Origin: Pleurotus djamor | Taxonomy: Eukaryota > Basidiomycota > Agaricomycetes > Agaricales > Pleurotaceae | NCBI GenBank assembly: GCA_029747585.1 | Contig: JAPEVF010000118.1 | Coordinates: forward strand, 1 to 64,000 | DNA length: 64,000 nucleotides | Direction: 5' to 3' | In this document: positions 1,550 to 41,684 of the stretch, piece after piece | How the letters are laid out: each line of letters starts with the position of its first letter | How positions within the stretch are numbered: the stretch's first letter is position 1 | The notes under the pieces: model-generated | What the model saw: only the letters and a program-made list of their open reading frames with translations | Databases searched by the model: none | Told to the model about the DNA's origin: nothing | Program-made: the position numbers and the translations under genes

Positions 1550-1570
1550 AAAAAATTTTTTTNTTTTTTT

Positions 1571-1965: not shown

Positions 1966-2149
1966 CAGGCCTGGGCTGGTTATTATAAAAATAAAAACTT
2001 AAAAAAGTAGGCCTAATTGCAAAGTTATTTGTCGCAAATATAAATTTAATCTAACTAATAAAATTTAAACCCCCTGATCGATAAATTTATTCTATGCTTT
2101 ACTAGTAAATATAGCTGATACTAGTACGGCACTAAATATTTCTCTTTAG
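1966..2149. other. Mitochondrial spacer
   Basis: AT-rich spacer between two GC-rich hairpins. A short segment near 1995-2045 can be folded weakly around a GCAAA loop, but no acceptor and T-arm complete a tRNA, so I make no gene call. Confidence 0.5.
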
Positions 2150-2372
2150 ACCCCACCCCCCCCCAACACTTTAACTTTAGTGTTTGGGTCACTATCCCTT
2201 TCACACCCTTTCCCTTTCCCACCCTACACTTCCCTTCCCTTTCCCTTCCCTACACATCCCTTCCCTTTAGGGTGGGCTGTGAAAGGGTGGGTAAGGGTGG
2301 GCAGTGTAGGGCGTGTGTGAAAGGGATAAATTAAAGTTAAATTGGGAAGGGATAGTTAAAGTGAAAGGGATA
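2150..2372. repeat. GC-rich hairpin element, copy 2
   Basis: Same arrangement as the element at 1763-1965: TTTAGTGTTTGG, CCCTTCCC blocks, CTTTAGGGTGGGC at the turn, then complementary GGGTAAGGGTGGG blocks and TTAAAGT at the end. The two copies are direct repeats about 390 bp apart. Confidence 0.8.
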
Positions 2373-2628
2373 AGACTATAATTAAACTAAAATTTTAAGC
2401 TCTCTTTATCATATTCAATTTCTGCACCTTGTACTTTAACATAAAAATAAAAAATGTTGACTTTCATTTTTTTGGTTTTTTTGTTTGTTTNNTTTTTTTT
2501 TTTTTCGTAGCTGCGCAGCAGCTGCGTAGCAGAATAAGAAAACAAGTTGTCACAAGAAAAATGAGATTAATTATAAGATTAAAAGCCAAGGGGGATTAAA
2601 AACAAAAATATTTATTTAAAAATAAAAA
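2373..2628. other. Mitochondrial spacer with a short GC hairpin
   Basis: AT-rich sequence downstream of nad3. A small perfect hairpin, GCTGCGCAGCAGCTGCG, lies near 2510-2527 beside a T-run with NN at 2491-2492. No gene seen. Confidence 0.6.
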
Positions 2629-3001
2629 TTATTTATTATTAGGTTGATCAAAATTAGTTAAAGAGATTGCTCCTGATCCAATTTCTAATACAAATCCTAT
2701 AGTAAGTACAATGAAAAAAANTAATACCAATTGAGAAACCGAAAGTACTTACTTGGTAAAGAGTAACAGCTAGAGGGAATAATAATAAAATTTCAAGATC
2801 AAAAATTAAAAATAAAATAGCTACTGTATAAAAATGAATTTGGAAAGTAGATCTAGTTTGACCATAAATAACAGAGAATCCACATTCATAAGCAGAAACT
2901 TTAGCTTCATCAGGTCTATGAGTAGCTAATAAAACATTTAAACCAAGTAAAGCAAAAGCTAAGATAGGTACAAAAATAAATAACATTAACAAGTTGTTCA
3001 T
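2629..3001 (-). CDS. nad3: NADH dehydrogenase subunit 3 (mitochondrial complex I)
   Basis: Subunit 3 of respiratory complex I, a small membrane subunit near the quinone-binding region. The translation shows the signature [14 protein letters not shown] around residues 29-42, with the conserved loop cysteine, and [10 protein letters not shown] in the second membrane segment. An N at 2721 beside a run of A shifts the raw frame. Reading across it recovers the usual C-terminus, including [14 protein letters not shown] and TNFDQPNNK, with a stop at 2629-2631. The start codon abuts the nad2 stop, the usual fungal nad2-nad3 arrangement and a sign of co-transcription. The frame break is almost certainly a homopolymer error. 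Confidence 0.93.
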
Positions 3002-4801
3002 TTAAAAATTAAATAAAGATAAAGATAATACTTGAGTAATATTTAAGATTATTGAAGGTTTTAGAATAAATAATAAAATAGATAATGTTAGACTAGAAAT
3101 TAAGAAACTATGGAAATTTGTTAATAAATTTACATTTTTAATAGATAAAATATTTTGTGTTTTAATTTCTGATGTTAAGGTATTTTTAGTTATTTCTACT
3201 TCTTCAGATCCTTCGGATCCTTCGGTTGATGTATGAAGAACTTTAATAATTTTTAAATAATAAGAAGCACTTACTACACTAACTAGTATAGCTACAATAG
3301 CAATAAAATAATATCCACTTTGCATTGCTGAATATAAAACAAATTGTTTTGAAAAGAATCCGATTAAAGGAGGCATACCAGCCATAGAGAATAAACAAAT
3401 AGTTAAACTTAAACTAAGTAAAGGATTTGAGAAAAATTGACCTTTAAATTCTGAAATATATTTTATATCTTTTATTTGTTGTAATACACCTATTTCTTTT
3501 AAAGAAGAGAAAGAATTATTATAATTAATTATAGAATTTTTAATAGTATATCCTAAAGCTAATATAATTAAGAACATGTTTAAATTTGTTATTGTATATT
3601 GAATTATATAAAATAATAATGAATCTATTGATTGTTCTGTATTTATAGATAAAGCCAATAAGATAAATCCTACATGAGATATTGTACTATAGGCTAATAG
3701 TCTTTTTATTTTTGTTTGAGCTAAACCTACTATTGTTCCTATTAATAATGAAAGTAATGAACTTATAAGTAATAAATTTTTTATTATTATTGTAGTATTT
3801 ATATCATTTAAAATAGGTAATATTGTTGTTATTTTTGTTATAAATTCTACTCCTGTTAGATTAGAAACTGAAGTTAATAAATTTAAATTATCTATTGCAA
3901 TATATAGACCGCTACCTATTTGAGTATATAATTCTAATAATAAAATTAAAATAGAGATTTTAGGCATTATAGTTAACCAAGTTGTAACTATTGTTGGACT
4001 ATCATCATAAACATCAGGAGACCAATTATGTAAAGGAGCTGCTGCTATTTTAAATAAAAATCCTACAAAAATTAAAGTTAAACCTAAACTTAAACCTTGT
4101 ATTACATAATTAAATTCTGATACTGAAATTAAACTATAAATTGATTCAAAATTAGTTAATCCTGTAAAAGAATAAATTAATCCTGCTCCTAATAAAATTA
4201 AACAAGAAGATAAACCACCTAATAAAAAATATTTTAAACCTGCTGAGGTTGCAGATTCTGAATCTCTAAATAAAGTAGCTAAAATATATAAACCAAAAGA
4301 TTGTAATTCTATACTTAAATACATAGAAATTAAATCAGAAGAAGATACTAATAAAGAAGCTCCTAAAGTACTAAATATTATTACTAAAGAATATTCTGCA
4401 AAATAATTACTTTTATAAAAATCTAGTAATGAGATTGTACTATTATTTGTTTTTTCTTTTAATTGATCTTCTTTTTCAACTGAAGATAATAATACTTTAC
4501 TTAGATCTAAAGAATCTATTGTTTTTCTTTGTAAAACTAAAATAGGCCAAGAGATTAAAATTAAAGAACCTATTAAATAGATAAATCCTTCAATAAATTG
4601 AGAGATTGAAGTAATATGGAATAAACCGCTATATATTCCTATACCTGATCCAATTGACTGAATATAAAGAGTATTTAAAGATAATACTCCGGCATAAATA
4701 AAAATTATAGCTGTAATTCTAGGGTATAACACTGGTGATAAATTATTATTTGAAATTAAGGCCTTAGCCACTATTAATATTAAAATACTTAAAAAAATCA
4801 T
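3002..4801 (-). CDS. nad2: NADH dehydrogenase subunit 2 (mitochondrial complex I)
   Basis: A 599-residue proton-pumping antiporter-like subunit of complex I. The translation is hydrophobic throughout. It contains LSIELQSFGLYILATLFRDSE, the FKIAAAPLHNWSPDVYDDSPT lysine region and FSMAGMPPLIGFFSKQFVL, all typical of nad2. A hydrophilic Ser/Glu-rich insertion (TEGSEGSEEVEIT) sits near residue 525. The gene is uninterrupted and ends exactly where nad3 starts. Its first ~70 codons and leader are duplicated in inverse orientation at 934-1176. Being intact, it could be authentic mitochondrial sequence or a very young nuclear copy. Confidence 0.97.
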   Translation of the reverse strand: MIFLSILILIVAKALISNNNLSPVLYPRITAIIFIYAGVLSLNTLYIQSIGSGIGIYSGLFHITSISQFIEGFIYLIGSLILISWPILVLQRKTIDSLDLSKVLLSSVEKEDQLKEKTNNSTISLLDFYKSNYFAEYSLVIIFSTLGASLLVSSSDLISMYLSIELQSFGLYILATLFRDSESATSAGLKYFLLGGLSSCLILLGAGLIYSFTGLTNFESIYSLISVSEFNYVIQGLSLGLTLIFVGFLFKIAAAPLHNWSPDVYDDSPTIVTTWLTIMPKISILILLLELYTQIGSGLYIAIDNLNLLTSVSNLTGVEFITKITTILPILNDINTTIIIKNLLLISSLLSLLIGTIVGLAQTKIKRLLAYSTISHVGFILLALSINTEQSIDSLLFYIIQYTITNLNMFLIILALGYTIKNSIINYNNSFSSLKEIGVLQQIKDIKYISEFKGQFFSNPLLSLSLTICLFSMAGMPPLIGFFSKQFVLYSAMQSGYYFIAIVAILVSVVSASYYLKIIKVLHTSTEGSEGSEEVEITKNTLTSEIKTQNILSIKNVNLLTNFHSFLISSLTLSILLFILKPSIILNITQVLSLSLFNF

Positions 4802-4977
4802 TTCTTATCCTCTTTTAATAAATTTTATTTTATTATTTTAAAAATAAAAATTGTAATTTAAAATAACAAAAAAAAATTATAATAAAAATATTAAAAGTTT
4901 ATATTATCGAACTGTTTTTTATATTATTAAACATTATTGAGTCAAGGGGGTTATAAAAAAANTCTTTCTTTTCTTAA
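4802..4977. other. Mitochondrial spacer between nad2 leader and downstream ORF
   Basis: AT-rich, with an N at 4962 in an A-run. The part next to nad2 (about 4802-4830) belongs to the inverted duplication. No gene seen. Confidence 0.6.
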
Positions 4978-6018
4978 TTATTTATTTTTAACAAAATTTA
5001 AATATAATTCGCTAAAATCTTCAAAATTTTCTATAAGTATTCCCATATAAAAATAAGAAAAGATATTACAAAATAATAATAGTGATATAATAATAACTAA
5101 AGTAACTGTTTGGGATTTCTCCCAATATTTTAATATTTTTCCTAGTTTTATTTTAAAAATCTTATTATATTTAGATGTTCCAGGAAAAATATAATCTACC
5201 CATTTAAACTCAAAGTTCTTAGTAGAAAGGTATTTTAAAAATAATGAAATTATTAAATTTAAAATAAGAATAATGCTGATAAATTGTAAAAGATGAATCC
5301 CTAAAATTAAGGTTTCAACAGGGTTAGAATTATTTATTAAAGTTTCTAAATAACTAGGCTCATTAATACTTGATGGTGATATTGTAGAAGGAGGACTATT
5401 TCCTCCAAAAGGGCTCTTTGGATTAGAAGTAGAAGAAGAATCATTCTTCAGCATAGCTAAAGTAATAGCTTTATTTGCTGCATTAGCTGTAACATGAGCA
5501 GTCGCACCGGCAAGAGCCCCTAAAGCTACTAATCCTCATTTTTTTATCTTTTTCTCTCTTCTTTTTGTTAATAATTTATTGAGAGAAAAAAAGGCAGGAG
5601 ATCCTGAAACTAAGTTACTCATAGCAGCAGCTCCACCTGCTATAGATACACCTAATCCTAAATTCTCCCCTGCCATAATCAAACCTGTCTTTATTTCTTT
5701 AGCTGCTTCATAAGAAAGATTAACCATAGCAGTCATACTAGGGTTACTATTTTCTATTTCTGTTTTAATTAAATCCTCTCTTGCACAATCTATTTCATTA
5801 ATAATATTATTATTTAATATTAAAAAATAAAAAATAGAAAATATCAGAATTAAAGCTATTAAAGAGAATAGAAATTTTTGTGCTATATTAATTAAATTTA
5901 GTTTAGAAAATTTAAAGTTATCTATTACAAAAGTGAATATTAGATAAAAGATACAAAAAGAAATAATTATTTGTAATATATCATTGTTAAGTATGTTTAT
6001 TAATGTATTTGTTGGCAT
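4978..6018 (-). CDS. Mitochondrial multi-pass membrane ORF of about 346 aa (TGA read as Trp)
   Basis: Under the standard code this looks like two ORFs (5536-6018 and 4978-5454) separated by 27 in-frame codons. The only interruption is TGA at 5536-5538, which encodes Trp in the fungal mitochondrial code, so the gene is one frame. The product has N-terminal membrane segments, a soluble stretch with CAREDLIKTEIENSNPS, a Gly/Ala-rich segment (GLGVSIAGGAAAMSN), a basic KRREKKIKKW turn, GLVALGALAGATAHV, a Ser/Pro-rich loop and two further membrane segments. I do not recognise a defined function. Similar hypothetical membrane ORFs occur in fungal mitochondrial DNA and plasmids. The basic turn is encoded by the dispersed palindromic repeat at 5545-5593. 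Confidence 0.7.
5545..5593. repeat. Dispersed CTCTC...GAGAG palindromic repeat, copy inside an ORF
   Basis: TTTTTCTCTCTTCTTTTTG, a short AT spacer, then TTATTGAGAGAAAAAAAGG. The same motif recurs at about 6905-6970, 7090-7145 and, inverted, at 8328-8388. This copy encodes part of the membrane ORF. Confidence 0.7.
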
Positions 6019-6526
6019 TGTTTTTTATTTTATATTTGTTTAAGGTTTCAATAGGGACTAAATGAAGTGAATAATAAGTTAATATTTATTATTTTAAGTT
6101 AATATTTTTATTATTTCTCTAGATTTATGTGACTTCATTTAATATATCTTAAATTCCATATATATCTAATGGTATACATACGTTCCATTGTCTATACGAT
6201 ATAATGTTTTAATATAATGGATACTATTATATGAATTTAAGATATTAACTAAGATAATTTAGATCCTACACTATAACTTAATGAGGCTCTATCACTTATT
6301 CTAAAAAATAAATTTAATAGATTTTAGATAAGTAAATAATAAATTTATTTATAGTATAAATTTAAATAATTTACGATTAAACATAAGTATCCTTAAATTA
6401 AATTTTATTAATAAAAATTAAAAATTTAAATAAATTATTATTATTTTTTATCTTCTCTTTTAATTTTAATTTAATTAATTTAAATAAGGTTGTGTATTTT
6501 GTTTTTTGTTTTTTGTTTTTTGTTTT
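6019..6526. other. AT-rich mitochondrial spacer
   Basis: No ORF or tRNA seen. It ends in a simple tandem of GTTTTTT units (about 6498-6527) beside the tRNA-Thr gene. Confidence 0.6.
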
Positions 6527-6598
6527 TGCCGAAAACTGGAATTGAACCAATATTTAAATCTTACAAGGAATTCGTTTTACCAATTAAACTATTTCGGC
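6527..6598 (-). tRNA. trnT: tRNA-Thr (UGU)
   Basis: Cloverleaf on the minus strand: acceptor GCCGAAA pairs with TTTCGGC, D-arm GTTT/AAAC, anticodon loop CTTGTAA with anticodon TGT, T-loop TTCAATT, discriminator A. One T-T mismatch in the anticodon stem. CCA is not encoded, as expected. Confidence 0.88.
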
Positions 6599-6824
6599 TG
6601 GGCTATATATTATTTACTTTTACTTTTACTTTTACTTTTACTTTTACTTTCTAAAAAATATTTTTTTATTATTCTTTTTTTATTCTTATTTATTTTTATA
6701 AATTTTTATCCACCTTCTTATAAAATTAAAAATAAAAGAAAATAAATAAAAAANTATAAAGAGTAGGGTAGTAAGAGATGGAGATGTAGCCTTAATTATA
6801 TATTAACTTACTTTTTATATTTCT
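6599..6824. other. AT-rich mitochondrial spacer with simple repeats
   Basis: Holds a run of ACTTTT units (about 6615-6650) and an N at 6754. The apparent ORF through here is low-complexity. Confidence 0.6.
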
Positions 6825-6896
6825 TGCCCCGGGAGAGAATTGAACTCCCATATCTATATCTTCAGAATAGCGCTTTGACCACTAAGCAACCGAGGC
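6825..6896 (-). tRNA. trnF: tRNA-Phe (GAA)
   Basis: Minus-strand cloverleaf: acceptor GCCTCGG/CCGGGGC, D-loop AGTGGTCAA, anticodon loop CTGAAGA with anticodon GAA, T-loop TTCAATT, discriminator A. The closing pair of the anticodon stem is a T-T mismatch. Confidence 0.87.
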
Positions 6897-7351
6897 TTAT
6901 TACTTTACTTTCTTTTTGTCTTTTTTCTCTCTTCTTTTGTTATAATTTAATTTATTGAGAGAAAAAANGGCAAAAACAAATAAAAACAAATAAAATTAAA
7001 ATTAAAATTTAAATTAAAATTAAAATTAAATTAATTAATATAGGATTGTTTAGTTTACTTTCTTTTCTTTTATCTCCTTTTAAATGACTTTTTGTTTTCT
7101 TTTTTTCTCTCTTCTTTTTGTTATAATTTATTGAGAAAAAAAAGAAAAACAAAAAACAAAAATATTTTTTAGTAAAATAATAATAAAAATTTCTACTAGT
7201 AAAAGAAAAAGTTGTAGGCTTTCTAAATAAAATAATAATAAATAAAAAATAAATTAAATAAATTCTTTTATATTTAATTTATTTCTATTTTATTTTAAAA
7301 GAGATGTAACCTTAATTATATACTATATTAGATTAATTAAATTAATAAAAA
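6897..7351. other. AT-rich mitochondrial spacer with two palindromic repeat copies
   Basis: Contains the CTCTC...GAGAG repeat at about 6905-6970 (with an N at 6967) and about 7090-7145. No gene seen. Confidence 0.6.
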
Positions 7352-7436
7352 GGGCAGGTGATCCGATTGGTAATGGTGGTTCTCTGTAAAAGAATTGGTT
7401 AAATGTCCGTAAAAGGTTCGATTCCTTTACTGCTCA
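7352..7436 (+). tRNA. trnY: tRNA-Tyr (GUA)
   Basis: 85-nt class II tRNA: acceptor GGGCAGG against ACTGCTC, anticodon stem GTTCT/AGAAT around CTGTAAA (anticodon GTA), a long variable arm, and T-arm AAAGGTTCGATTCCTTT. The long variable arm supports Tyr. Confidence 0.9.
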
Positions 7437-7749
7437 AAAAAATCTTTAAGCTTATAAATTAATAATTATAAATTTTAAGTAAAACTTTCCTTCTTTTGGA
7501 TCTGATCTAAAAAAAAAGTAAGCTAAATACTCTGGTATTTCCAGCCCTGCCATGCTCATCCACCCTACCCATCCCTACCCTACCCTTCCCTTTCACTGCC
7601 CTTAAGGGATGTGTAGGGTGGGAAAGGGAAAGGGCTGGGAAAGGGAAGGGGTAGAAACAAACCTATGAGAAAAAAGATAAATAATATCTTTTTTATTTTT
7701 TTTTATAAATAATATATTTAATTTTTTTTATATAAATTAATTAAATTTT
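7437..7749. repeat. Mitochondrial spacer with GC-rich hairpin copy 3
   Basis: About 7545-7655 holds another GC-rich hairpin element: CCACCCTACCC and CCCTTTCACTGCCC, then AAGGGATGTGTAGGGTGGG and AAAGGGAAAGGGC. Flanks are AT-rich and gene-free. Confidence 0.75.
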
Positions 7750-7822
7750 AAGACTTTAGCATAATGGTTAATGCAGTTCGCTCATAATGGATATTATAAG
7801 GGTTCGAATCCCTTAGGTCTTA
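7750..7822 (+). tRNA. trnM: tRNA-Met (CAU)
   Basis: Acceptor AAGACTT/AGGTCTT, D-loop with GGTTAAT, anticodon stem GTTCG/TGGAT around CTCATAA (anticodon CAT), T-arm AAGGGTTCGAATCCCTT. Sequence alone does not say whether it is an initiator, elongator or lysidine-modified Ile tRNA. Confidence 0.9.
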
Positions 7823-8202
7823 TATTATAATGTGTTATAAATTTTTTTTTTTNAATCTTCCCACTTGTCCCTTTCACTTTAACTTTCCAATTTAACTTTA
7901 AATTAAGTGGGAGTGCCGGGGTGGAGGGTGTGAAAGTTATATTATGTTTAAATACTTTTAAAAGAAATGAAAATGGAAAAGTTAATAAATTAATAAAAAT
8001 AATAATTATAATTATTTTAAATTAAATTAAAAAAAAATATTATTACTAGACTAGCACTAGCTAATTGTAACTATAAATTATTTTTTTTTTCTATTCTCTA
8101 ATAAATAAAATAACATAAAATAAAATAAAAAAATATAATAAAAATAAAATATTATAAATAAAATAAAATAAAATAATATAATATAAGATAAAAATAAAAT
8201 AA
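7823..8202. repeat. Mitochondrial spacer with a partial GC-rich element
   Basis: A shorter GC-rich hairpin remnant lies at about 7856-7937 (CTTCCCACTTGTCCC ... GGTGGAGGGTGTG), after an N at 7853. The rest is AT-rich with AAATA-type simple sequence. No gene seen. Confidence 0.6.
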
Positions 8203-8288
8203 GGGCATTTGGTCGAGTCTGGTTTATGGCCCTCGTCTTGAAAACGAGTACTTCTTTGAAGTCGTGAGTTCAAATCTCACAGTGCCCG
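8203..8288 (+). tRNA. trnS: tRNA-Ser (UGA)
   Basis: 86-nt class II tRNA: acceptor GGGCATT/AGTGCCC, anticodon stem CTCGT/ACGAG around CTTGAAA (anticodon TGA), long variable arm TACTTCTTTGAAGTC, T-arm GTGAGTTCAAATCTCAC, discriminator G. Confidence 0.93.
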
Positions 8289-8327
8289 TTAAATTACTTA
8301 TTCTTAATTTTTAATTATACTTTTTTA

Positions 8328-8388
8328 TTTTTTCTTTTTTCTTTTTTCTCTCAATAAATTATAACAAAAAGAAGAGAGAAAAAAAAGG
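8328..8388. repeat. Dispersed palindromic repeat, inverted copy
   Basis: TTTTTTCTCTCAATAAATT, then ACAAAAAGAAGAGAG and AAAAAAGG. This is the reverse orientation of the copies at 5545, 6905 and 7090. Confidence 0.7.
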
Positions 8389-8454
8389 CAACAAAAAAAT
8401 AAATAAATAAAAAATAAAAATAAATAAAAATAAATTAAATAAATTAATATAAAA

Positions 8455-10300
8455 GAGATATTAAATATTGCATTAAGCAAATAAAATACGACAATAAACC
8501 TTATTGTACTTTCGGTTCGGTCGAAGGTATTGGGTATTTTTGTTTAAATTACAGGACGAATTTAATTTTGGTTCCGATTGAACGTTTTTCAGTAGTTTTA
8601 AGACATGCAAATCATTGTTCTGAAAATTTTTAATTAAAAAATTAACATTTTTTAACTAAAAAAATAGGAATAAGGTGTAAAGGTGAGTAATGATAAATTA
8701 GATACCTTATAGACTCTCTAAATAGGGGATAAATACTACTCTATTATAATTCTCCATTTTTAATTAAAAATTAGAAGTGTGATTTAATATTGCTTTATTA
8801 ATTTGAATTCTAATGAGGTTCATTATTTATATTAAATTATAAATAAAGTGAAAGTATTGATAAATAAGCTAATTTATTAAAGAAAGGAAATTTTCCGCTA
8901 TAAGATTCGATTTATTTTGTTTAGGTAGTTGGTGGGGTAAAGGCCTACCAAGCCGACGATCAATAGCCAAGTTTGACAGAACAAATGGCCACATTGGGAA
9001 TGAAATGCCCCAAGTAGTGTTAACTACCAGCAGTCGAGAATATTAGTCAATGCTCGAAAGAGTGAACTAGCTAACTGAAATCACATGACTCATTCTTATA
9101 GGTGGTGATTGTGATAAGGTGTAGGGAAAAAAATGATATTACCTCACTAAAAGTGTTGTCCAAATCTGGTGCCAGAAGACTCGGTAAGACCAGAAACGCA
9201 AACGTTAGTCATCTTAATCAGGCGTAAAGGGTATGTAGGCAGCTTTGAAAGTTTTATTTTTNAAAAAAAGCTCTTAAGTAAAAATAAAATAAATTAAAGC
9301 TAGAATCAAATAGAGGAAAAACCAAATAATACTTAGAGTAGGGATGATATCCATAGATACTAAGGGGAATACTAAGGGCGAAAGCTTTTTTTTCTACTAA
9401 TGATTGACGCTGAGAAACGAAGGTGAGAATAGGAAATAGGATTAGATACCCAGATACCTCTCACTGTCAACGATGAATGGTGGTTGTTAGTTTTAATAAA
9501 AACTGGTGACGATGTTAACACGATAACCATTCCGCCTTGCGAGTACGGTTGCAAAACTGAAACCNAAAAAAATTAGTCGGTCTCGAAGCAAACGAAGTGA
9601 AGCATGTTATTTAATACGATAATACGCGTAAAACCTTACCAGACCTTGCATATCTAGCAGACTTATTTGAAATTCTCTATAACTTACTGCTCTCGTAACA
9701 GAAGGTTTAGTTAATTAAAAATAAGAAAGTGAGTATATTTTTTCCCTTTCCCTTTCACACCCTTTCACTTCCCTTAAGGGAAGTGTAGGGCTGGGAGGGC
9801 AAGGTTGAAAATAGTACGCAGATACAGGTGTTGCATGGCTGTCGTCAGTCCGTGTTGTGAAGAGTGAGGTTAACTCCACTAACGGACGCAATCCCTGTTG
9901 TTAATTTATACTTAACAATTAATGATTCTGATAGAGTTTCATTTGGGGCTAAGACAAGCCGTTATGGCCCTTATGGTCTGGGCTATAGACGTGCCACATC
10001 AACTTTTACAAAGTGATGCAAAACTTTACCTCTATTTAATGTTTAAAGCCAAACTTTAAATAGAATAAAAAGGTAATAAGGAATAGCTAATCATTAAAAA
10101 AAAGTTCATTTATTAAATTATAGACGGATTGTCGCCTGCAATTCGGCGGCATGAAGAAGGAATTTCGAGTAATCGTTGATCACTACGCAACGGTGAAGAT
10201 AGCATTCGTGATGAACTAACTGTCTGTCGCTGGGAAGAAGCTTAACTTGGGGGAAACTGCTACAAAAATAAAACTTAAACATAATTATCCATTTCTTTAA
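8455..10300 (+). rRNA. rns: Mitochondrial small-subunit rRNA
   Basis: Structural rRNA of the small mitoribosomal subunit. Conserved small-subunit motifs appear in order: GTGCCAGAAGACTCGGTAA (530 loop, near 9170), GGCGTAAAGGGTATGTAGGC (near 9221), ATTAGATACCC (9441-9451), CGTAAAACCTTACCAG (near 9628), TTGCATGGCTGTCGTCAG (near 9831), GGACGCAATCCC (near 9883) and CTGTCTGTCGCTGGGAAG (near 10219, the decoding-site end). Both ends are estimated from the position of these landmarks. Ns at 9262 and 9565 lie beside homopolymers. A GC-rich hairpin element interrupts the molecule at about 9738-9806. Confidence 0.92.
9738..9806. repeat. GC-rich hairpin element inserted in rns
   Basis: CCCTTTCCCTTTCACACCC is followed by CACTTCCCTTAAGGGAAGTG and GGGCTGGGAGGGC. 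It is the same family as the spacer elements and sits just 5' of the conserved CAGGTGTTGCATGGCTG segment. An insertion in a variable region of the rRNA is likely tolerated. Confidence 0.75.
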
Positions 10301-12487: not shown

Positions 12488-15390
12488 TCAATGGAGTCCG
12501 CCTTGCCATTCCGTGATGTCTCCGGAGAAACAGAGTGATGCAAGGTCGTAATATGCCCACATGTTCGGTTGTATAAAAAGCAATCGTTGGCGCTCTGCGA
12601 GCGGATAGGCACAGGCGCTGATGAAGCCGTATTGGCCTTCATGGGTGGTGTTGCCTTCGACATCAGGACCTATGATGACAACCCGAGCTCCAACAATGAA
12701 GATTGCCGGATTTTGCAGCGGGTACAGATACAAGATCTTGAAGAGACGGTTCGTTTGATCTTGTACCCGTACGTTGACCGAGCTTCTTTCATCCACTAGG
12801 GCCTTCGTCAACACAACCGTGCCTTCCATCCCTTCATATCTTCCAGCGCGGTACGCCGCACGATGAAAACCGTGTACATCTCCCTCAGTCGTTCCTTGTA
12901 CGACAACCTTGACCTTGGAGTGGATTGGCACCTTCAGCAGCCAGTGGACTGTCGCATTGTTAGATATCATCATAGAATAATTTGTATGGTTGAGTGTACC
13001 TTTTTCAGGCCGCGTCCCTTCATGTGGACCTGGACGCCAAATGTATTCCTCGACATCCACATCAGGTTCGACCTCTGGCGTTCGGGCACGCTTGTGACCA
13101 GGAGCAAATCGAGGAGGGTCGACAATGGAACGAGGAAGACGCGCCGCTATTAAAATAGGAAGACCAGTGCTAAGTAGGTGGGTCAGATGCTTCTTTCAGA
13201 GACATTCCATGTGTGTGCTCACCGAAGCTCTTGTAGCTCAGACGGCTTGAACGTGTGTGTGTAATGCGAAATGTTGGTTCCAACTCTGACCTCGAACATC
13301 AAATGCTTGTCATTGGGTTTAGCATTGCTTGATGTTTCTACCGTGTATCGATGACCAACTATTGTTCCAATCCGACCTTTCAAGTCGCTTTGCCCAATGA
13401 TTTGTACCTCCAGGTGTTTGAAACGTTCTGGCCCCGAGGTTTGGCTTGTGACACGTTGAGGGGCGATATCACCACGGGTGACTTCCATAGGAGCAAGAAC
13501 TGCCACGTCTGCCCCCACAGGAATCTGTTAGAAACATCTTTGTTAGTCCCGTGGTACCGCTACAGATAAAAGGGAAGGCACCATTGACATGGTCTCCTTG
13601 ACAAAAACATCCACCTGCCACAGATCATTCTTGACCACAAATCCCATCGTGCCTGCATGTTGACCTCGTAAGACTTTGATGTGATCTCCTACTTGGAAAT
13701 CTCGAGCGATGCTTCTCAAAGCAACTTCACACGACTGTGTCTGCTTTGCACTAGGCTGCAAAACGACGTGATGCTCGTCAATGGTGGACATAACCCGTCC
13801 ATTGAGTCCACTATAAGGCCCCATGACGACGCTGACATGGGTCCCTGGTGTATGAAGGGTTGACGCCGACAGCTCGTCCAAAGGCACCTCTATGGGCGGC
13901 AAGTCCTCGTCAAGGAGGACTTGCAGCACCACGCAGTCCTGCACAATTTCACGGATTGTGCCACGAATGCCTGAGAAGAGACCTGAGACCACAGCGACCT
14001 TTTCACCTATGGAAAAGGTGTTGAGGGATTTGCGGGCACGTATGATCGTCTGCGTGAATCGCTGTGATTTCTCCAAAGTGTGATCCTCAGCCATATCAGA
14101 TGGCCCAACTAACAACTCGGCGTCGAATAACGGCGATGTGCACAGAGCATCCAGCTCCGCACTGGTGGGGTTGACAAAAGTGGTCTGCAAGAGATGTAGG
14201 GGGATACTGTGAATTCGGAGGCCCTCTATGAATTTACGCCTGACATTTTTTGGCCGAGAAACCAGGCCATGGGCCTGATCAGGACGAACATCCATTGCCA
14301 GGGTTTGCTGTGGAGAGGATGACCTGGAACGATAGACCGAAAAGAGCTCTGCGGTGTGTCCGTTTACAGCGTTGACGAAAGCGACATTGTTGCGATTTAG
14401 ACTTCGGTTGCGTATGCGAACCAACGTGGATGGTCGAACTGTTGGCGCCGGGGCAAGGTGCAGGAGAGAGACTCTATCGGCAACATCCACAATCTGAATG
14501 AGGCTTTTGATTTGACGTCGTCGTAGGCGAACTGTGCTGAGATTTTCAATGGCGCGGATGCAGTCGCTGTACGGGCCCTCGATGTACACTACGCCGGGTA
14601 TGTGGTCTCTTTGAAAAGCGCTCTGCAACGGGATAGCTCTCTCCATTGCTTGACTGAGTATGAGAGCCACAGTCTCCACCTCCTTGCCCTCCTGATTGTC
14701 ATAAATACGAGAATTACAACCATGAAATCATGAAATGGTATTCACCTGAACATCGACCTGCCACAAGTCTGGGTCTGTGAGCGACGGCATAAGGCTGATA
14801 CCTGCCCCCCACCCAGACTCGATGGACCATGTTTCAGTGGCAAAAACGGCGCTGCTCGACGCAGTGCGAGGTGGTTCTATGCGTCCATGTCGCATGCGTA
14901 TGGCGGTGGCAGATGCTTCATTGCCAGCATGTTCAGCCTCAGGATCCAGAATTGGCATCGACCGAATGGCACGAGTAGGTGCTTCGTCGTCGCCACGATC
15001 GTCGAGAAAGTCTATTAAATTGATGTGGACGGTGGGTCACAGGTCTCATCATCGGTCATTTGAGACGCACCTCTTTCTGGGACTTCATCATCTTCATCGT
15101 CGTCGGACGGATCAATTTGAGCCTCTATATCGAGGAATTGTCGAATCTTTTGAGTCTTTTATTTTAGGAACGTCTAATACTACTCCCTCCCTCACAGCTT
15201 ACATCTTGATATCTCTTATATTTCGCTGTGGCGACGCTCATGTTGCACACGCTTACACCGAAGGTGGAAGTGCGGGATCAAAAGAGGAAAAAGGTTCCGT
15301 GGGGGACCGTGCGCCACCTGACCATTTCCAACTCGGCATTTTGCGAAAGTCCATGTGGACTCGGCTGGACCCGAGTTGGAATTCTACATA
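12488..15390 (-). CDS. Spt5-like NGN/KOW protein
   Basis: Spt5 pairs with Spt4 and rides on RNA polymerase II as an elongation factor. In transcription order the gene reads: an acidic lead (QIDPSDDDEDDEVPER), an intron, LDDRGDDEAP, then an NGN-like domain (DLWQVDVQ, intron 14692-14745, EGKEVETVALIL, HIPGVVYIEGPYSDCIRAIE). At least four KOW-type segments follow within 13543-14679: PSTLVRIRNRSLNRN, FSIGEKVAVVSGLFSGIRG, HVSVVMGPYSGLNGRV and FQVGDHIKVLRGQHAGTMG. The C-terminal part has VDVEEYIWRPGPHEGTR, FHRAAYRAGRYEGMEG and ARVVIIGPDVEGNTTHEGQ. Lineage-specific Spt5-like paralogues are common in agaricomycetes as I recall. The first exon is uncertain; coding before about 15175 could not be followed. 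The canonical C-terminal repeat of Spt5 is not seen, so this is probably a paralogue and not the housekeeping copy. Confidence 0.78.
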
Positions 15391-15630: not shown

Positions 15631-16989
15631 CTACAGAAGCGAAACAGGGAGAGAAACAGAAACATCGTTATACCTATCGACAACCTCTGGACGCATGTGA
15701 AGCACAAACCCCACCCGCTCTCCCTCAAACCATCCAGGCGAGTCATGCTCGAAAACGCACCCTGAAAACATCATAGCAGCACCCGGTGGGTACGCAAAGA
15801 TGGCTCCAAGTTGACGAAGTCGTATAACCGTGTCCGCAGTACCGGTGTTGAAGAGCATATCAAACTGGTTGACATCCCCTTTACCATCGACGTGCAAACG
15901 GCTACGACGATTTGCCAACACCGACAGGCATGAAAAAGCGGAAGGCCACCGCTTTGCCCAGTACGCAGTTGAGTCGTCGTCCGACTCCTTCAGCGCATTG
16001 ATTGTACGCTGACCATGTCTATAAGACTGCGAATGGAATAGCGATAATAACACATCGCCGATCGTGAACAATCCACGGAGCTGCTTCAACCAAGAACCAA
16101 CCGGCTCTACGTTTCTCTTGAGACGCAACAATCTCGACGGCTTCGGTGGATGTACCCGCTGTATAGAGGTCATAAATATATGTGTTATAAACAGCTCATA
16201 GCGTCTGACCTTGCTGAATCGAGTATACCATCCCGGTGAGAAGGTCTCCGCCCCTACGACGGACAGACTCCGACCTGGTTGGGCAAAATGCTTTGGAGCT
16301 GTCCTCCACAGTTGTGAACGCTTCTTATCTGTGAGTGGTTTCATCAAGATACTCGAAATCTGCGACACTGATTGGGCCAAGCCCATCTGAAAGTCATAAT
16401 CAGCTTGGTCATAATTTCAGTACAAGGAAACGCGGTACCTGAGACTTAGCAGACATCAAAGCCGGGAGATATACGATCAAGGGGATTCCGTCTGAAGAGA
16501 GCACAAGCAGCGGATTCGCAACGTCCCCGAGCTCGATACCAGCTAGTAAACGAGTTCTTTGGCCTAACGTCGCCTTGGTAAGACGTTCTGCAGTGACAGG
16601 TAACACCACTGTTGAAAGCGAAGTCATAGGTCAGCATCTCACAGAAATGGGGCGAAGGTCTGTGCTTACCGCGTTTGTCGTAGGCCTCAGCTAGATTCGA
16701 CGCAAGCTCTTCCAACCGAAAACCTCTCCAGTGGGCGGGCATGTCGCTAGCCATTCGCAACGTCAACCTCGAACGCACAAACACATCTTTGTTGGATACG
16801 CACGGGTCTGTCTTGCCTAACATTGCCTGTTTGAGGAAGGCTGCAATGTTCTCTGTGCCATAGTACGAACTTGGGTTGCGGATCCTGGACATCTTGGTAG
16901 AGCAGAAAGCCGTGAACAGGGACATCCCCCATAAACATTTTTTTTTCAAAACACCGGGAAGTCTCGCGATCAATGCCACCAAATGACAT
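15631..16989 (-). CDS. TET/JBP-family 2-oxoglutarate Fe(II) dioxygenase
   Basis: TET/JBP enzymes oxidise 5-methylcytosine or thymine in DNA. The catalytic half (15631-16386) shows FSCLSVLANRRSRLHVDGKG, a Phe-Asp strand (NQFDMLFNTGTAD), GAIFAYPPGAAMMFSGCVFEH and then GWFEGERVGFVLHMR. The Fe(II) ligands of the HxD...H motif and the 2-oxoglutarate arginine correspond to H165, D167, H214 and R224 of that ORF, so the active site looks intact. A 51-nt in-frame intron (GTCAGACGC...TACAG) splits WYTRFSK from RVHPPKPSRLL, so those numbers count intron codons. The upstream part (VRSRLTLRMASDMPAHWRGF, ELASNLAEAYDKR, LTKATLGQRTRLLAG) is joined by introns. An A9 homopolymer near 16945 may hide a frameshift in the first exon. 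It lies between, and is co-oriented with, the Spt5-like and H3-mimic genes. Basidiomycete TET/JBP genes are expanded and often linked to KDZ transposons; no KDZ transposase is seen here. Confidence 0.8.
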
Positions 16990-18490
16990 AAAAGACGACT
17001 AATCGATGAAACCAAGCTGCTTATAACGATGTCAGGCGTTTCAGCAGAAGGACGCGTGTATTATGCAAAGGAGTGTAAAGTAATGACAGAGCCGTGCGTA
17101 CAAACTCAAACGGAGTCGCTATGTGATGAGTGACTGACTAGCTGCAAGATTATGTTCTACGCGCGGGAACTGGGTAGGCCTCGACAAACCACTGACCACT
17201 CTGGGTCTTGGGACCGCACTGTCTCCCTTGAATCATGTCCCGAAGGTCGGCGTACTTGCATGGACCTTCCGTCAGAGGAGCGTTACAAGTGACTTGTAAT
17301 TTTGGTTTACCGCCTCGGGTCTTGACCACTTCGATTTTGAGCGATCGAACACACCGACAAATGGGACACATTGTTGGCAAAGTCACCCCGTACGGCGATG
17401 ATCTAGCTTGCGCCCAATAGAAACGCATGGCTAGCATACGTCCTCGCCTTTTCGGATCGCGCGCAATGAGAACCATGTCAGACGATTCTCCCAAGAACAG
17501 AGACCCTCCAAGGATGGTGGGGATTGACACAGGGAAGGGCGAGCATCTGACGTAGGACTGCACAAGATAGTTCCCTACGAAGGTTCGGGCGATACTCGGT
17601 TGAAACGACTGGTCGGTGAAAGAAAAGATTTCCTTGAAGCATCCTCTGAACCAGAGAATGAGGGCCAGCTTAACGATAATGCGCAACGACGTACTTGTTA
17701 ACAGAGTCCAACATCCAATCACGGGTTTGTTCATGTCCGTCTATGCCCTTGCATACGAAGAACATGAGCGTTGAACGATCTTTCTTCTTCATAGGCTGCA
17801 TCAAGTCTTCAACAAACAATCGCGGCAGCAGCTGTGGTATGCAATGCCACACGTCAGTGAGAAATGGGTGACAAGCCGATGTACTTGCCTCCTGCGGATC
17901 GTAACTGGCACCCGGGTCGATGACCTTCCCGTCCTTGTCATGGACGACGGGAGCATGTTGCAAGCAACCACCCTCGCCCACATGAGTCATAAAAATGACA
18001 ATGACCTGCTTTGTGGCATCGCTGAAAGACTAGGTAAGCAACATTGTCACCTCCCATAACATCCACTCACTCTTTAACCGCCTTAATCACACCAGCCAGT
18101 TGGCGTTTGTACTCAGTATCTCCTCGTTTGTTGGAATTGAAGAAAATGGAGAACGTGAGCAGTTGTCCGCCGTCTCTCCCGAAGTATGGTTCCAGGTAAG
18201 AGTGGGCGTCAATCATTGGCTGATCCATTGTCTCACAGCCTTCCAAAGCTAGGAAGAGGAGAACCGTGGTCGGGGTGTTGATGGGGGCAAAGAATACTGA
18301 GCCTGTGCGACGCACTGCCACGACGAGATCCTTAACCGGATTTTTGGCCTTGTCGTAGAATCCCTGGAGACAGTGAGCTTAGCACACTGGAACACATTTC
18401 GTCCCGAAACTCACATAGTAGCTAGTCTTCACCGGAGGAATGTGTGCAGCATCGCGATCGTTGTGGCATCTTGGGCAGACAAAGTCATGC

Positions 18491-18496
18491 TCCTGC
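18491..18496. repeat. Target-site duplication, left copy
   Basis: TCCTGC, repeated directly at 21741-21746 right after the other end of the element. Keeping one copy restores the exon frame of the disrupted gene. Confidence 0.9.
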
Positions 18497-18587
18497 CACT
18501 TCAGGCTGCCACCTTGCTTGACCTATTAGGTCTATCTCTACCACAGAGAAGATAGACCTCGGAGGTCNAAAAAAGGTGGTCACCGCC

Positions 18588-18935
18588 CACCCTCTGGGGC
18601 ATGCCCACCTTACACCATTGTGGGCATGTCCACACCTACTACTTTTGCCTATTTTACTGGGGGGCAGCTCTATGAAAAATCAAGGTGGGCATGTCCACTT
18701 GTCTATATTATTTGTAGGTGGGCATGCCCATACCTATATTTTGGTTAATGGTGGGCATGCCCCCACCTTTACTTCATTCAATGGTGGGCATGCCCCCACC
18801 TTTATTCTGTTTAAAAGTGGGCATGCCCCTACCTATATACTATTTGGTAGTGGGCATGTCCACACCTCTATTCTGTTCAATGGTGGGCATGTCCACACCT
18901 CTATTCTGTTTAATGGTGGGCATGCCCCCACTGAT
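18588..18935. repeat. Subterminal palindrome array, left arm
   Basis: Ten copies of a near-palindrome with core TGGGCATGCCCA or TGGGCATGTCCA, centred near 18601, 18625, 18691, 18723, 18756, 18789, 18821, 18854, 18888 and 18921. The last seven are about 33 bp apart. A mirror-image array with fewer units fills 21345-21645. Such subterminal arrays usually bind a transposase. Confidence 0.85.
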
Positions 18936-18959
18936 AGAACATCTTGTTTGGTTAGCTTA

Positions 18960-21280
18960 ATGATTTATTGACTGTTACAAGAGTAGCATGGTGATAAGAT
19001 AAACATTTTAACAATATAGAAATAATGTCAATATAAGGATTTTAAAGTGTGAGAAATAATTATTGACTGCAAGAATATTGTTGTCACAGTAAGAAAAGTG
19101 TCAAAATATTGGTAGGTGTGAGAAAATTGCAAAAAAAAAAATTGAATTCTGGTAGTTATATTTACTCTGGGAAAAATTACTTACTGTGGGAATTTTAAAA
19201 TAGTGACAAATTCTAAATAACTATGCACGGCCATTCTTCTTATTATACAAAGTAACTGAACAAATGATGCAAAACACCTTTACTGACTCTGGGAAATAAA
19301 TTCACTAATTATAAAAAATTAAAAAGAAGATTTGGAGTTTGGCCATTTTACTAATAACGGCTTATCCATTCCTTGTAGAAATCAACCCACAGTCAATGTA
19401 TCAAAATCATAGAAACTTGGCCTCTCTAATAAAAACTTTGCCCATTCACAGTTAATCCTAACTGTGATAACACCTTGAAGGTACCAATCATGCAGCAAAA
19501 TACCTTATCCATCAAAGACAAACTTTTAAGTCAAAGAAGAACCCCCAGAGCATTTCTAGTTATGGAGCAAAGTAAAATTTACTATAGTAAATTCTGAAAA
19601 GATGTTGGCTACACTGTACATCTACACCATTCACATCACCTTTGATCTGTTGGTTAGCTCTTTATTAATGTATGTTTAGCTTTCATTCTGATGGCTTTCA
19701 CACTAATTAAGAGAATAACCATGTTCCCAAGATCTGGAATACCTTTATACAACCTTGGCTTCAATTTATTATTCACTAGATCTTGCACTTCTATTCATAT
19801 TACTAATCAAAACTTTGTCCATGACAAGACTGTGGAAAATTACTGCTAACTGTGAGAACATTGCACTAACTATGAGACCTTGCCCAATTTTAATGAAACT
19901 TGTACAAACTTTCATAATTTGGTAGATCTACAAATTCTAAGGTCCTGAGTGCAAGGGGAATCCTTGGAGCATATCTAGTTACTGAGACAAATTGAAATTA
20001 TTTTGAGGATTCTGTAGGTTTGATGATTTCAATCATGTATTCTCTCTAGTACTTTCCTCCTTCAACCTGTATATTCTTGCTTCCATCAGCTCCACCTGGG
20101 TGTATAAAGGTTGCTTTGAGCATTCTAGATAAGATTTAGCCTCTCTGATGGCATAAGGAAGATGCACTTACCTTTTCAAATCTTCAACCACAGATATGCA
20201 TCTTTCAGAAAACCACCTTGTATACTCTTTATTTTAGGAATCCCATTCATAGCTTCTCCTTAGAGGCATGATACATATGAAAAGCAAGTTCCTCTCTATA
20301 ACTATAGACTTGTGTGGGAGGAGCAGAACTGGTGGGTGATGGGGGAAAGATATGAATTGCATATATACAGAAAAGTTCAACATTATTGAAGATTGTGATT
20401 AAGCCTGAAGGTATTCCCAATCTTGGGGACATGGTTGTTGCCTTAAACAGTGTAAATCACATCAGATAGAAGCTGAACATGCATCAACATGTACAGAAAC
20501 CAGGAAGCTAACCAACAGACAAATGAAGATGTGAATGATGTGAATGGATTATAGGTGAAATCAAGGTTGTTTCAGATTTCACCAAAGTAAATTCAACTTT
20601 CCTCAATAACTAGAAATGCTCTTTAGCTCTTGCTTTGACTTAGAAGCTTAGAATTCTGAGATATAGTGTTTCACAAATTTTGACACTTTCTTATGATCAG
20701 TAATTTGTTCTCACAGTTGGGGAGGACCCTGAAATGGGCAAGTTTTATTAGAAATTTGCATTTACTCACAGTTTGATAAAAGTTCCCATTAGTACACATT
20801 GTGAGTAATAGATGCATGAACAGAGTTTTGAAAGTTTTTAAGGCAGAAGTAAAGGATTCATAGAGGATGGCTAATATTAATGGCTGGATTGCCTTTTGAA
20901 GATCTTTTTGGGCGATTTTTGATCTCTTATGGTCAGTAAGGTATTTCTCACAATAAGTAAAGCATTTTCCCACGGTAAGTCGAGAGTTTTTACAATAAGA
21001 AATACTTTCTCACAATGAATCAAATTTTCCCACACTTCTGTAAGCTCGCGGTTGCATTTTTTGACAAAGTTCTCACGGTAAGCATATTTTCTCACAGTCA
21101 AATATAACCTATATTGAATCTGACACTTTGAGAATCTTCTCATACTTCTTATGATCACTATTGAGTTTGCACAGTCAGTAAACACCCCTACAAATTGAAA
21201 CCCCTGGATACAGACCTATTTTATGCTCTTTAAAATATCTTCAAACACTATTCTTTAAAGCAAGTGTTTATGGAGGATAA
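18960..21280. repeat. AT-rich core with scattered TCTCACAGTAA-type motifs
   Basis: The left half is dotted with forms like ACTGTGGGAA and ACTGTGAGAAC. The right half has the complementary forms CTCACAATAAGTAA, CCCACGGTAAG and CTCACGGTAAGC. No ORF of interest. The motif direction flips near the centre, consistent with the foldback structure. Confidence 0.6.
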
Positions 21281-22144
21281 ACATGCCTTGCATATTGTGG
21301 CTTTATAGATTGTTTACACTTGTTTTTACAGGCTGATGTTGGGGGCATGCCCACCATTGAACAGAATAGAGGTGTGGACATGCCCACTATCAAATAGTAT
21401 ATAGGTAGGGGCATGCCCACTTTTAAACAGAATAAAGGTGGGGGCATGCCCACCATTGAATGAAGTAAAGGTGGGGGCATGCCCACCATTAACCAAAATA
21501 TAGGTATGGGCATGCCCACCTACAAATAATATAGACAAGTGGACATGCCCACCTTGATTTTTCATAGAGCTGCCCCCCAGTAAAATAGGCAAAAGTAGTA
21601 GGTGTGGACATGCCCACAATGGTGTAAGGTGGGCATGCCCCAGAGGGTGGGCGGTGACCACCTTTTTTNGACCTCCGAGGTCTATCTTCTCTGTGGTAGA
21701 GATAGACCTAATAGGTCAAGCAAGGTGGCAGCCTGAAGTGTCCTGCGCTTTGGCTTCGCTGGTGATTTGGAGACAACCATTGGCGGTTGGATCTTCGATG
21801 AAGAGGCCATCGTCGCGCGGCGGAACAACGACATAGCACATCCATTGGTCGCATAGGCCGCAACATATGACGTCGCCGCCATTTTGACATCCAGTACACA
21901 ACTGTCGAAGATTAGTAGTGCCCTCACAAATATCGCGGCCACTCACAGAGCTCTTATGAACCTCCTTTGGAGGGTCGAGCATGTAAGGACGCATACTCAC
22001 TTTCTGCAAAGAAGCTTTCTTCGCAGCGACAGACGCGGTCTTCTGTACCTTGGATGAAGCGGCCGTCAAAGTAGCGGTCGATGGTGCCTTCCTAGGTGCG
22101 GTGCCGTCTACAGACTTCGACGCTGTTTGCTTGGTCCTTGCCAT

Positions 22145-23696
22145 GGTGTCTTGCCGCCGTTACAGAGGGGAATGGGTGTTAATGGAAGGTTTTAGCCGAC
22201 ATGCGCATTTTATAACCAAGTTCCCTGAGCGACACGGTCACGTGACTTTTTCCACCGACAAAAAAAAGGGTGCGGGCCATGATCGAAGCGGAGACACTTC
22301 CTTGCAAGGCGTCAAATGTATTTGTGGTGGTATGAAGGGCTGTGGGGGCGGTGTGTAAAGTAAAGTCTAGTGCTCAAGCAATGAAGGATGACTGTGGCTA
22401 AAGCACCTGATGACTTCACGCGCGAGGCTCGGGCCCAGCCATCGCACGATCCATCATCCTGTGGTTTCATAAATAGAGAAGCTAATCTACGGCAGGCGGG
22501 AAAAAGCGGTGGGAAAAGGAGCCATGAGAAGCTACACGAAAAGAACGTCAGTACGATATCAGATACCGAGAAGTGGCATACCTTCAAAGACCAGGGGTAA
22601 GGCCGCCACAGGACATAGGTGTAACACACGTGCACGACGAAGCGCAGGACTAAGGAGGAAGTGAATAGTATCAGCGAGGATCAAGTACACACAACAGGGA
22701 CACGGGCTCACCCAAGTAACATACCACCGGACTACCGAACGTCGATTGACGAACGGAAGACTTCTGCTTGTGAAGGGAGACATGGTTGCGAGTCGCGATA
22801 TGAGGTGTTGCATCGTTGCCATAGCTATCATCAATAAGCATGCGCCACAGAAATCAGGGGGTGAATACACATACGTAGGTGCAGTCGTCTTCCAAAACCT
22901 TATGTTGTACTTATGAGGACGCGCCAGAGACAAGGACATAGATGATTTCCAAGGGAATGCTGCGAACGCTACAGTGAGCCCACGGCGACGCGTAGCAACA
23001 GTCGAGACTTACGAGTTTGGGTATACTGGGGGCGTGGGTACGATAGAACACGCCCGAGGGCAGTGAGGAGGGACACGTTGACTCCGATGAAGGACTGTGT
23101 AGGGGGGCAGAAATTAGGTCAAAGGCGAGTGGGGGCGAGTGGGATACGGAAGGGACCAACGACGTTGTTGTTCATGGGGGCATTGGTTAAGGAAAGCACG
23201 CCCGAAGGCAGGGAGAGGCCAGAGGAAAGGTATGTTTCGAGTCATCATCTTGCTCTTGAGTTTCTTCCGATGACTGGTACTTGCGACAGAACTGAATCTG
23301 ACGCGTTCCCGGCAGAGACCCATGCGAAAAGTCTCTGGAGACGAGTTTGGCCGTATGCCAGCTCGTCCCGTACGGTGCTTTCCAAGGGGTCGAACGAACG
23401 CGAATGTCGTCGACCAACCAAACTGCAACGTGATGCAGCCGGTTCGCTACCGAGGAAAGCACCCACTGGAGGCCCCAACCAAAGAGTTGGGGCGAAGAAA
23501 AAAAGCATGGTCTGCGGCCACGCACCTTTTATCAGTTCTGTGGTTCGCATCACGTGTCTGTGATTGATGCCGAACACAGCCTTCGGTCCGTAAGTCACCG
23601 TTGTTTGATCAGTGCGACATGACGTCACTTTGGTTGGATTTTCTCTTTGTATTGATGACGCCCTTTGCAGGACATGGATGTTCGCAATGAACACCG
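22145..23696. other. Gene-poor stretch
   Basis: Includes the promoter side of the H3-mimic gene. Many overlapping short ORFs occur on both strands, but none shows a recognisable domain or coherent intron structure. No TATA-like box stands out. Confidence 0.5.
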
Positions 23697-40282: not shown

Positions 40283-41684
40283 CTACTCATTCACCGTAAC
40301 TCGCTCAACTTCCTCACTGGCTTTCTCCCACCATATCTGACCGGGTTCAGGACGATCGTAAATCCACCTGATAGGACCCCACCCTCTACGCAGACACCGC
40401 GTAAAAATGTACCCGAACCTCATATAATCGTCAGAGAATTCCCAATCCACGATTGCAAGCTTTGGGAATCGTTCAAAGAGGGAAGCGACCGTAGGAAGGT
40501 CAACTTGAGTGTCCACTAGAAGGTAGATGTAGACGAGCGACCGGGACGGAATGTTGAAGATGGCGTTGATTTCGGAAACATTCTATTGTGAAGAAACAAT
40601 TGTGGAATGAGGAAGGTTGCTTAACGCAGAGAAAGAAATAAGATGGAATGAGCGTACTTCGTTTATTGCCATGATTGATAGATATTTGATACTACAAAGA
40701 TGGCGACCGAACTGTGCAATAAGTGCTGGGTCGTCGGGTGATAGTCGAAGGCTCTGAAGATTGTTTAAGGTGAGAGTAGCGGGAATGGAAGGAGGGATTT
40801 CGTTGATTAGAGTGATAGAAAGGTGCCTGACTGCACTGAGCGACGGGCTTGACAGTCTAGGGAACAAGGCCGCCCAGACACTCGGGCCTGCCTCAAGCCA
40901 GACTAGTCTCGGGAGGTCGATGACGGGGCTAGCCATGGCAGTTGAAGAAGGTCCCGCAATGCTGAGACTGACAAATTGTAGATTCGAGTGAAATTGAAGT
41001 AGAGAAAGAACGGATTCGTCGCTCTGTAGGATTTCGAGGTGGGTCAGCTTGACTGTGGCAGGAAGGCTGCAGAGGATTTCTGACGGGAAGACCAGACTGT
41101 AGCGAACGGACACGCGTTGGAGGTTTGTGAAAAACGGCAGAATACCGCGAAGTTCCTCCCATCCTTTCTCCACCAAGTCCCTCCATCCATCCACGAGTCT
41201 GACTTTGCCGGAGAAGGGATTGATTGTCAGAGAAACCGTGTATTTCGCTAGAGATGGGTTGCTCGTAAGCGTTGCGTAGAGCCTTGGAAGACGGTGGAAT
41301 GGGATGCAAATATGGGGGAAACTGGTATATGGAGTCTTCGGCTTCCAATCTACAGAGCCTGAATCAGATTGATACAAAGGTGGATTACGGAGGAGATCGA
41401 CAAACCGACACCATTCATACAAATTTGTTGCCCACTCCGTGCGGTGGCCCAGCTTAGGAAGGCGTTTGAGTCCGAAAACGTAATAGAGATTGAGCTATAC
41501 ACAAGAGGAGTGACGAGGGCGTAAAGCTGCTTGGAAGTTCGTTGTAATGGGAGAAGCAAGCTGCGATCATGACTGTCGTGGTTTGCGATGACCAAAGCCC
41601 ATAGTTCAACCGGGAGATCTGCTATTTCCTGTTAGTTACTGAGTTCGAGGACTGACAGCAAACACGATCACTCATACACATCAT
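40283..41684 (-). CDS. F-box-like/LRR-like protein, member 2 (subfamily A)
   Basis: Micro-exon ATGATGT (start 41682-41684) and a phase-1 intron precede DLPVELWALVIANHDSHDRS and LLPLQRTSKQLYALVTPLVY, the F-box-like segment. The central part reads FPHICIPFHRLPRLYATLTS, NPFSGKVRLVDGWRDLVEKG, TVKLTHLEILQSDES and DLPRLVWLEAGPSVWAALFP, with leucine-rich strands. The final exon (40283-40516) has LFERFPKLAIVDWEF and IWWEKASEEVERV. It is closer to the genes at 57587 and 62431 than to member 1, judging from the shared KVRLVDGWRD motif. The product is presumably soluble and nuclear or cytosolic. Confidence 0.72.

Follow-up and report, generated by a model that had tools for sequence, protein, structure and literature searches.

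Gene Content and Structure of the Locus

The window, by which we mean the whole 64,000-nt stretch of Pleurotus djamor (pink oyster mushroom) DNA analyzed here, is part of contig C200 of a 55.9 Mb genome assembled in 1413 contigs, and the locus within it is also referred to as C200. It carries on the minus strand a gene whose predicted protein begins like the tail of histone H3 (the H3-tail gene), followed 257 bp downstream on the same strand by a gene for a TET/JBP-like 2-oxoglutarate oxygenase (the partner gene). The window copy of the H3-tail gene is broken by an insertion. The features of the locus, in the direction of transcription, are the following:

22236–22246, minus strand: promoter motif GTCACGTGACC, common to the family
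21947–22144, minus strand: exon 1, H3-like tail (residues 1–19) and start of the linker (open reading frame, splice models, junction in P0001)
21741–21901, minus strand: first part of exon 2, with the PHD-like cysteine finger as far as the insertion and the GCAGGA copy at 21741–21746
18497–21740, no strand assigned: inserted transposon-like element of 3.2 kb (inverted terminal arms, target duplication)
18415–18496, minus strand: second part of exon 2, with the remainder of the finger (CPRCH) and the GCAGGA copy at 18491–18496
18071–18363, minus strand: exon 3, start of the middle domain (junctions from splice models)
17889–18021, minus strand: exon 4, encoding the invariant middle-domain His (splice models, alignment)
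17695–17831, minus strand: exon 5, encoding the invariant middle-domain Cys (splice models, alignment)
17150–17645, minus strand: exon 6, end of the middle domain, Cys-rich C-terminus and stop codon (open reading frame, splice models)
15631–16892, minus strand: partner gene, encoding a TET/JBP-like 2-oxoglutarate oxygenase in which HxD, His and Arg are all found

Read on the minus strand from 22144, the H3-tail gene starts with MARTKQTASKSVDGTAPRK (longer reading MARTKQTASKSVDGTAPRKAPS). The first-pass annotation, made from the letters of the window, had claimed that 14 of the first 18 residues match histone H3 and that the differences fall at R8, T11, G12 and K14; comparison with ARTKQTARKSTGGKAPRK and direct reading of the residues bear out both statements. 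The chance of 14 or more matches to H3 is 1.5e-14 for one copy with the residue composition of the family's bodies. The further claim that the protein is not a histone also holds, with no histone match in Pfam and with H3 likeness at the N-terminus alone. A histone gene or pseudogene was rejected, because no histone fold was found after the tail with Pfam or with a profile search of the PDB.

Regarding exon 1, its proposed start at 22144 stands, whereas its end lies most likely at 21947 rather than around 21990. The same first junction is used in the annotated near copy P0001, and the spliced models of relatives place it identically, leaving a most likely intron of 45 bp (21946–21902). The GTGAGT found at 22000 of the window is not present in the near copies at C688 and C710-44470, where Ala is read. 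Across the empty insertion site, splice models predict a protein of 497 residues encoded by six exons. All gene models of the family are predicted from sequence in this way, and several copies carry stops or damage.

The inserted element is bounded by inverted arms of 401 nt that are 99% alike (18497–18897 and 21340–21740) and flanked by the target duplication GCAGGA, and C688 is uninterrupted at the same place. The arms contain 33-bp tandem repeats of the GGTGGGCATGCCCACC type. No transposase was recognized by eye within the element.

Elsewhere in the window, the first part (approximately 1–10,000) is A/T-rich and contains a mitochondrial-type NADH dehydrogenase frame at 3002–4801 (Proton_antipo_M, 214.8 bits), which would correspond to a mitochondrial insert or an assembly join. 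Many open frames between approximately 36,000 and 63,500 look similar by eye, for example those at 40583–41422 and 57746–58693; three frames tested from this part, including 53987–55183, gave no Pfam family at E up to 0.01.

Occurrence of the H3-Tail Family in the Genome

Searches of the P. djamor genome, whose counts are lower bounds, revealed at least 18 H3-tail loci with a readable start, in addition to two 3′ pieces at contig ends (C1300 and C186). Some of the 18 may be allelic or recent duplicates. The copies at C200, C688 and C710-44470 are near-identical, and body identity to the window protein falls to 27–30% in distant members. The domain order in the family is an H3-like N-terminus, a variable linker, a PHD-like cysteine finger, a middle domain and a Cys-rich C-terminus. 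Two members are annotated in P. djamor, namely ONZ45_g10558 and ONZ45_g10879. A protein search gave two proteins, both from P. djamor (E up to 0.001); most paralogues of this very genome escaped it, so it is a poor guide to the situation in other species.

Judged by eye, the start is H3-like at all 18 readable loci, and it is thus conserved among diverged relatives within this genome, as the first-pass annotation had proposed to check in homologues. The observation that the annotation named as refuting, homologues without the H3-like start, was made in part: five of the 18 loci lack the ARTK end, although all five retain KQTAKK[ST]T or IQTARKTSGAPA. Starts of the M[A/P]RT type were found at 13 of 18 loci, and MARTKQTA is exact at eight (C200, C688, two in C710, C712, C1318, C944 and C889). 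The remaining sequences include MARTRQTAKKTTGG at C669, MARTKVQPAHKSTDG at C983 and C28, MARTKIAAASKSTDG at C1283, the MPRT start MPRTTQGAKKTTGAPA at C1196, and MAGPSIQTARKTSGAPATKRQL at C630, while the genes at C658, C771, C1264 and C691 have an MPPK start followed by four residues and then KQTAKK[ST]T. In the whole genome, DNA encoding MARTKQTA occurs in 12 places, which are four H3 genes and eight members of this family, and DNA encoding KQTAxK[ST]T occurs in nine, which are four H3 genes and five family members; the control (for MARTKQTA, the reversed pattern) gave 0 in each case.

Thirteen of the 18 H3-tail loci carry the motif CACGTG between −80 and −121 relative to the ATG. For the longer motif GTCACGTGACC, 94 strand matches were counted genome-wide, with some sites matching on both strands, compared with 15 for the reversed control. 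On C464, C785, C1089 and C1125 it occurs in pairs approximately 537–566 bp apart and is perhaps part of another repeat. A separate long open frame, unrelated to the family and without any Pfam family over the cut-off, contains tandem H3-like stretches (RTKVTARRSCGGNAPRRPLATR and PRQSTGDDAPRKAIA) at C1382:46338–46409, minus strand (L044).

Conservation and Origin of the Tail

When the PDB was searched with a family profile of 11 rows, histone H3 tails were found at E 1.5e-5, and the H3 matches reached only profile positions up to approximately 42 of 496. Among the 12 loci with a MART start, Ala1, Arg2 and Thr3 are unchanged in all 12, encoded by four, six and four different codons, respectively, with Arg2 using all six Arg codons. 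A crude count over tail codons 2–8 (seven distinct loci, 21 pairs) gave a mean pS of 0.75 and a mean pN of 0.055, and silent changes in these codons are saturated. The H3-like N-terminus is held by purifying selection in a non-histone family.

Conservation is uneven along the tail. K4 is a lysine in 11 of the 12 MART loci, R8 is retained in two of them and K14 in none, and K9 is replaced by Q in two. It is the free end, ARTK(QTA), that is conserved, and not the K9 site. A bait for K9 methylation is disfavored by the state of R8 and K9.

A tree of 17 bodies has five main clades: four of them, situated on either side of the midpoint root, contain MART starts, and the fifth is made up of the MPPK genes (support 91/94). 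The ARTK start appears to be ancestral. Recent capture or gene conversion from H3 is unlikely because the tail codons are unlike those of the H3 genes seen and because the 40-nt first exon of four of the five modelled H3 genes ends in codon 14, whereas the H3 likeness of the family reaches approximately residue 18. As for a viral or prokaryotic source, no relative was confirmed among 77 pattern matches in viral contigs and 57 in prokaryote contigs.

Cysteine Finger and Middle Domain

The finger has eight Cys and a final His that are invariant in the alignments (11 rows of A1, 12 of A5), and its end is damaged at the last pair in C688 and C712. It was earlier described as a PHD-like finger following the H3-like start, and the PDB agrees to the extent that the nearest solved sequences are PHD fingers with weak matches: CHD4 (E 0.0092), PHF21A (0.021), TRIM33 (0.046), AIRE (0.061), SP140 (0.066) and TRIM66 (0.081). 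These matches cover mainly the first half of the profile (approximately positions 3–22 of 69), and some non-PHD proteins stand lower in the list. The window finger scores 19.3 bits against a Pfam PHD cut-off of 24, and Pfam PHD lists nine of the 12 fingers at E up to 10, with 0.00075 as the best value. From its sequence, the finger may be called PHD-like only.

Most of the PHD fingers in this list, those of CHD4, PHF21A, TRIM33 and AIRE among them, are readers of the unmodified H3 end. The P. djamor finger shares with these proteins, which head the PDB list, the C-x2-C ... GG ... C-x2-C pattern, and differs from them in having Cys for the usual His, a long variable insert before the last pair and a weak overall match. 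Two positions of the finger are presumably Arg2-holding sites, by likeness to UHRF1 and AIRE. An acidic residue stands at such a position in nine of the 12 members with Arg2 and in one of the five without it, an association with a one-sided p of 0.06 and a two-sided p of 0.10 that the relatedness of the rows makes weaker still. The acidic residue that holds K4 in AIRE or PHF21A was not seen in the family finger. An AlphaFold2 model built from two sequences was unusable (mean pLDDT 26.6).

The middle domain contains an invariant His and Cys approximately 58 residues apart, each after a hydrophobic stretch (alignment A1), and both residues are also present in further splice models and in C630. 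Searches of three family libraries (Pfam, PADLOC and NCBIfam) and of the PDB gave no credible match to it, and an hhalign comparison with a metacaspase encoded in this genome reached a probability of 1.4% with the two dyads unaligned. Assignment to the caspase-like peptidases of clan CD is unsupported, no profile or fold likeness to a known member having been found.

Linkage to TET/JBP-like Genes

A genome search with the window partner gave 20 places, and at 17 of these an H3-tail gene of the same strand is situated immediately upstream. Regarding the other three, a remnant of an H3-tail gene lies upstream of the C1399 copy, and the copies at C1116 and C51 are situated at contig ends, with their upstream side beyond the contig. 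Counted from the other gene, a TET/JBP-like gene directly follows the H3-tail gene at 15 of the 17 loci that could be tested, a number that leaves out the C710 copy at 44470, which runs off its contig. One exception is C688, which shows no TET/JBP-like gene and whose annotated protein continues into sequence like the window open frame at 12488–13060; the other is C630, with no TET/JBP-like gene in 26.8–33.5 kb. The multicopy nature of the family and its pairing with TET/JBP-like genes go beyond what the first-pass annotation had described.

HxD, His and Arg were found in 19 of the 20 partner copies (16 by pattern and three by eye); in the C1264 partner, the Arg falls outside the alignment shown. 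The window partner remains below the Pfam Tet_JBP cut-off (17.9 vs. 34.9 bits), and six linked paralogues pass it (C1196, C669, C889, C944, C28 and C710). The 33 Tet_JBP matches in the genome comprise 13 linked copies, C1399 and 19 that are away from all listed H3-tail loci; because of these 19, the pairing is taken to concern one branch of the TET/JBP-like genes. Known fungal TET/JBP genes are associated with KDZ transposases. The partner resembles the fungal TET/JBP oxygenases in its HxD, His and Arg and in the scores of its six linked paralogues, and differs from the known cases in that its branch is paired with an H3-tail gene.

An Spt5-like gene follows in C200, C1300 and C1318. In the window it occupies 12488–14679 on the minus strand, with KOW4_SPT5 just above the Pfam cut-off and NGN below it, and it belongs to a dispersed multicopy family (20 matches).

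Possible Function of the H3-Tail Genes

H3-like N-termini outside histones are known from other systems. The VRTK N-terminus of PAF15 (PCLAF) is held by the PHD finger of UHRF1, and the SNAG domain of SNAI1 and GFI1 is held by LSD1. The P. djamor family resembles PAF15 in carrying such an end, whose core is likely Arg2-Thr3-Lys4, on a non-histone protein; a single match to the Pfam PAF domain, over residues 1–53, was weak and not significant (E 6.1). Unlike PAF15, it combines the mimic and a reader-like finger in one chain and is multicopy, fungal and located beside TET/JBP-like genes. With SNAG it shares a free N-terminus imitating the H3 end, and it differs in that its likeness spans approximately 18 residues and matches H3 itself. 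Known histone mimics are mostly single proteins of animals and viruses.

On the basis of these sequence features, we tentatively favor, as possible and short of probable, a reading in which the ARTK end is a built-in ligand of the protein's own finger, the latter being of the type that reads unmodified H3, and in which the two together act as a switch in a two-gene chromatin unit. Removal of Met would free the ARTK end, which would then bind the finger in the same or a neighboring molecule, and the free H3-tail protein would thereby occupy its own finger and stay inactive. On a nucleosome, an unmodified H3 end would take the place of the tail, and the partner oxygenase would then act only on chromatin with such an end. 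Contact between the H3-tail protein and the oxygenase is suggested by the gene order. This reading would explain the joint occurrence of mimic and reader-like finger in a single chain as well as the fact that no other piece of the tail is conserved as strongly as the free end; it accounts less well for the four MPPK genes and C630. The interplay is not possible in every copy, because C658, C771, C1264, C691 and C630 lack ARTK and the finger is damaged in C688 and C712.

The nearest alternative, which we regard as somewhat unlikely, is recruitment: the ARTK end would be held by a host complex that binds H3 tails (LSD1-, SET1- or UHRF1-like), and the complex would be brought to the oxygenase or the reverse. 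It is consistent with the free end being the most strongly conserved piece of the tail, whereas among the 12 MART loci K14 is never kept and R8 only twice, and with the MPRT start of C1196, which resembles SNAG ends. It leaves the PHD-like finger in the same chain unexplained; no result separates recruitment decisively from the built-in ligand. A decoy that sequesters readers or modifying enzymes of histones, such as those encoded by invading elements or those silencing these loci, would agree with the many dispersed copies and with selection on the tail, but it would need an abundance comparable to that of its target, and the K9 methylation site is mostly spoiled. Since only two of the 12 MART loci retain R8 and two have Q for K9, the tail is not a general H3 bait, and we judge the decoy to be improbable.

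Another reading concerns the middle domain, which would be a peptidase of the caspase-like clan CD, with the tail as its pseudosubstrate or as a self-cleaved signal. The spacing of the invariant His and Cys, with a hydrophobic stretch before each, speaks for this proposal, but given the fruitless searches of the family libraries and the PDB and the failure of hhalign to align the dyads with those of the metacaspase, we consider it very improbable. Finally, the H3 likeness could be an accident or a frozen, functionless fusion, as the broken window copy and the stops, truncations and damaged fingers of some other copies might suggest. Such an origin is hardly credible against the 1.5e-14 calculated for one copy, the H3-like start at 18 of 18 loci, the saturation of silent sites, and the restriction of the 12 MARTKQTA-coding sites to H3 genes and this family, with none in the reversed control.

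Returning to the built-in ligand, its wider form would be a two-gene unit, multiplied across the genome, in which the oxygenase is governed by a partner that carries an H3-type reader finger, a copy of the H3 end serving as its on-board lock and perhaps also a new type of His-Cys catalytic domain. The unit would amount to a nucleosome-sensing switch equipped with an imitation of its own signal; we put this forward as a rather unlikely proposal. The 18 natural variants of one mimic provide a ready mutation series for learning which H3 residues a reader needs, and the pairing offers a concrete lead to how the TET/JBP-like enzymes of mushrooms might find their target chromatin.
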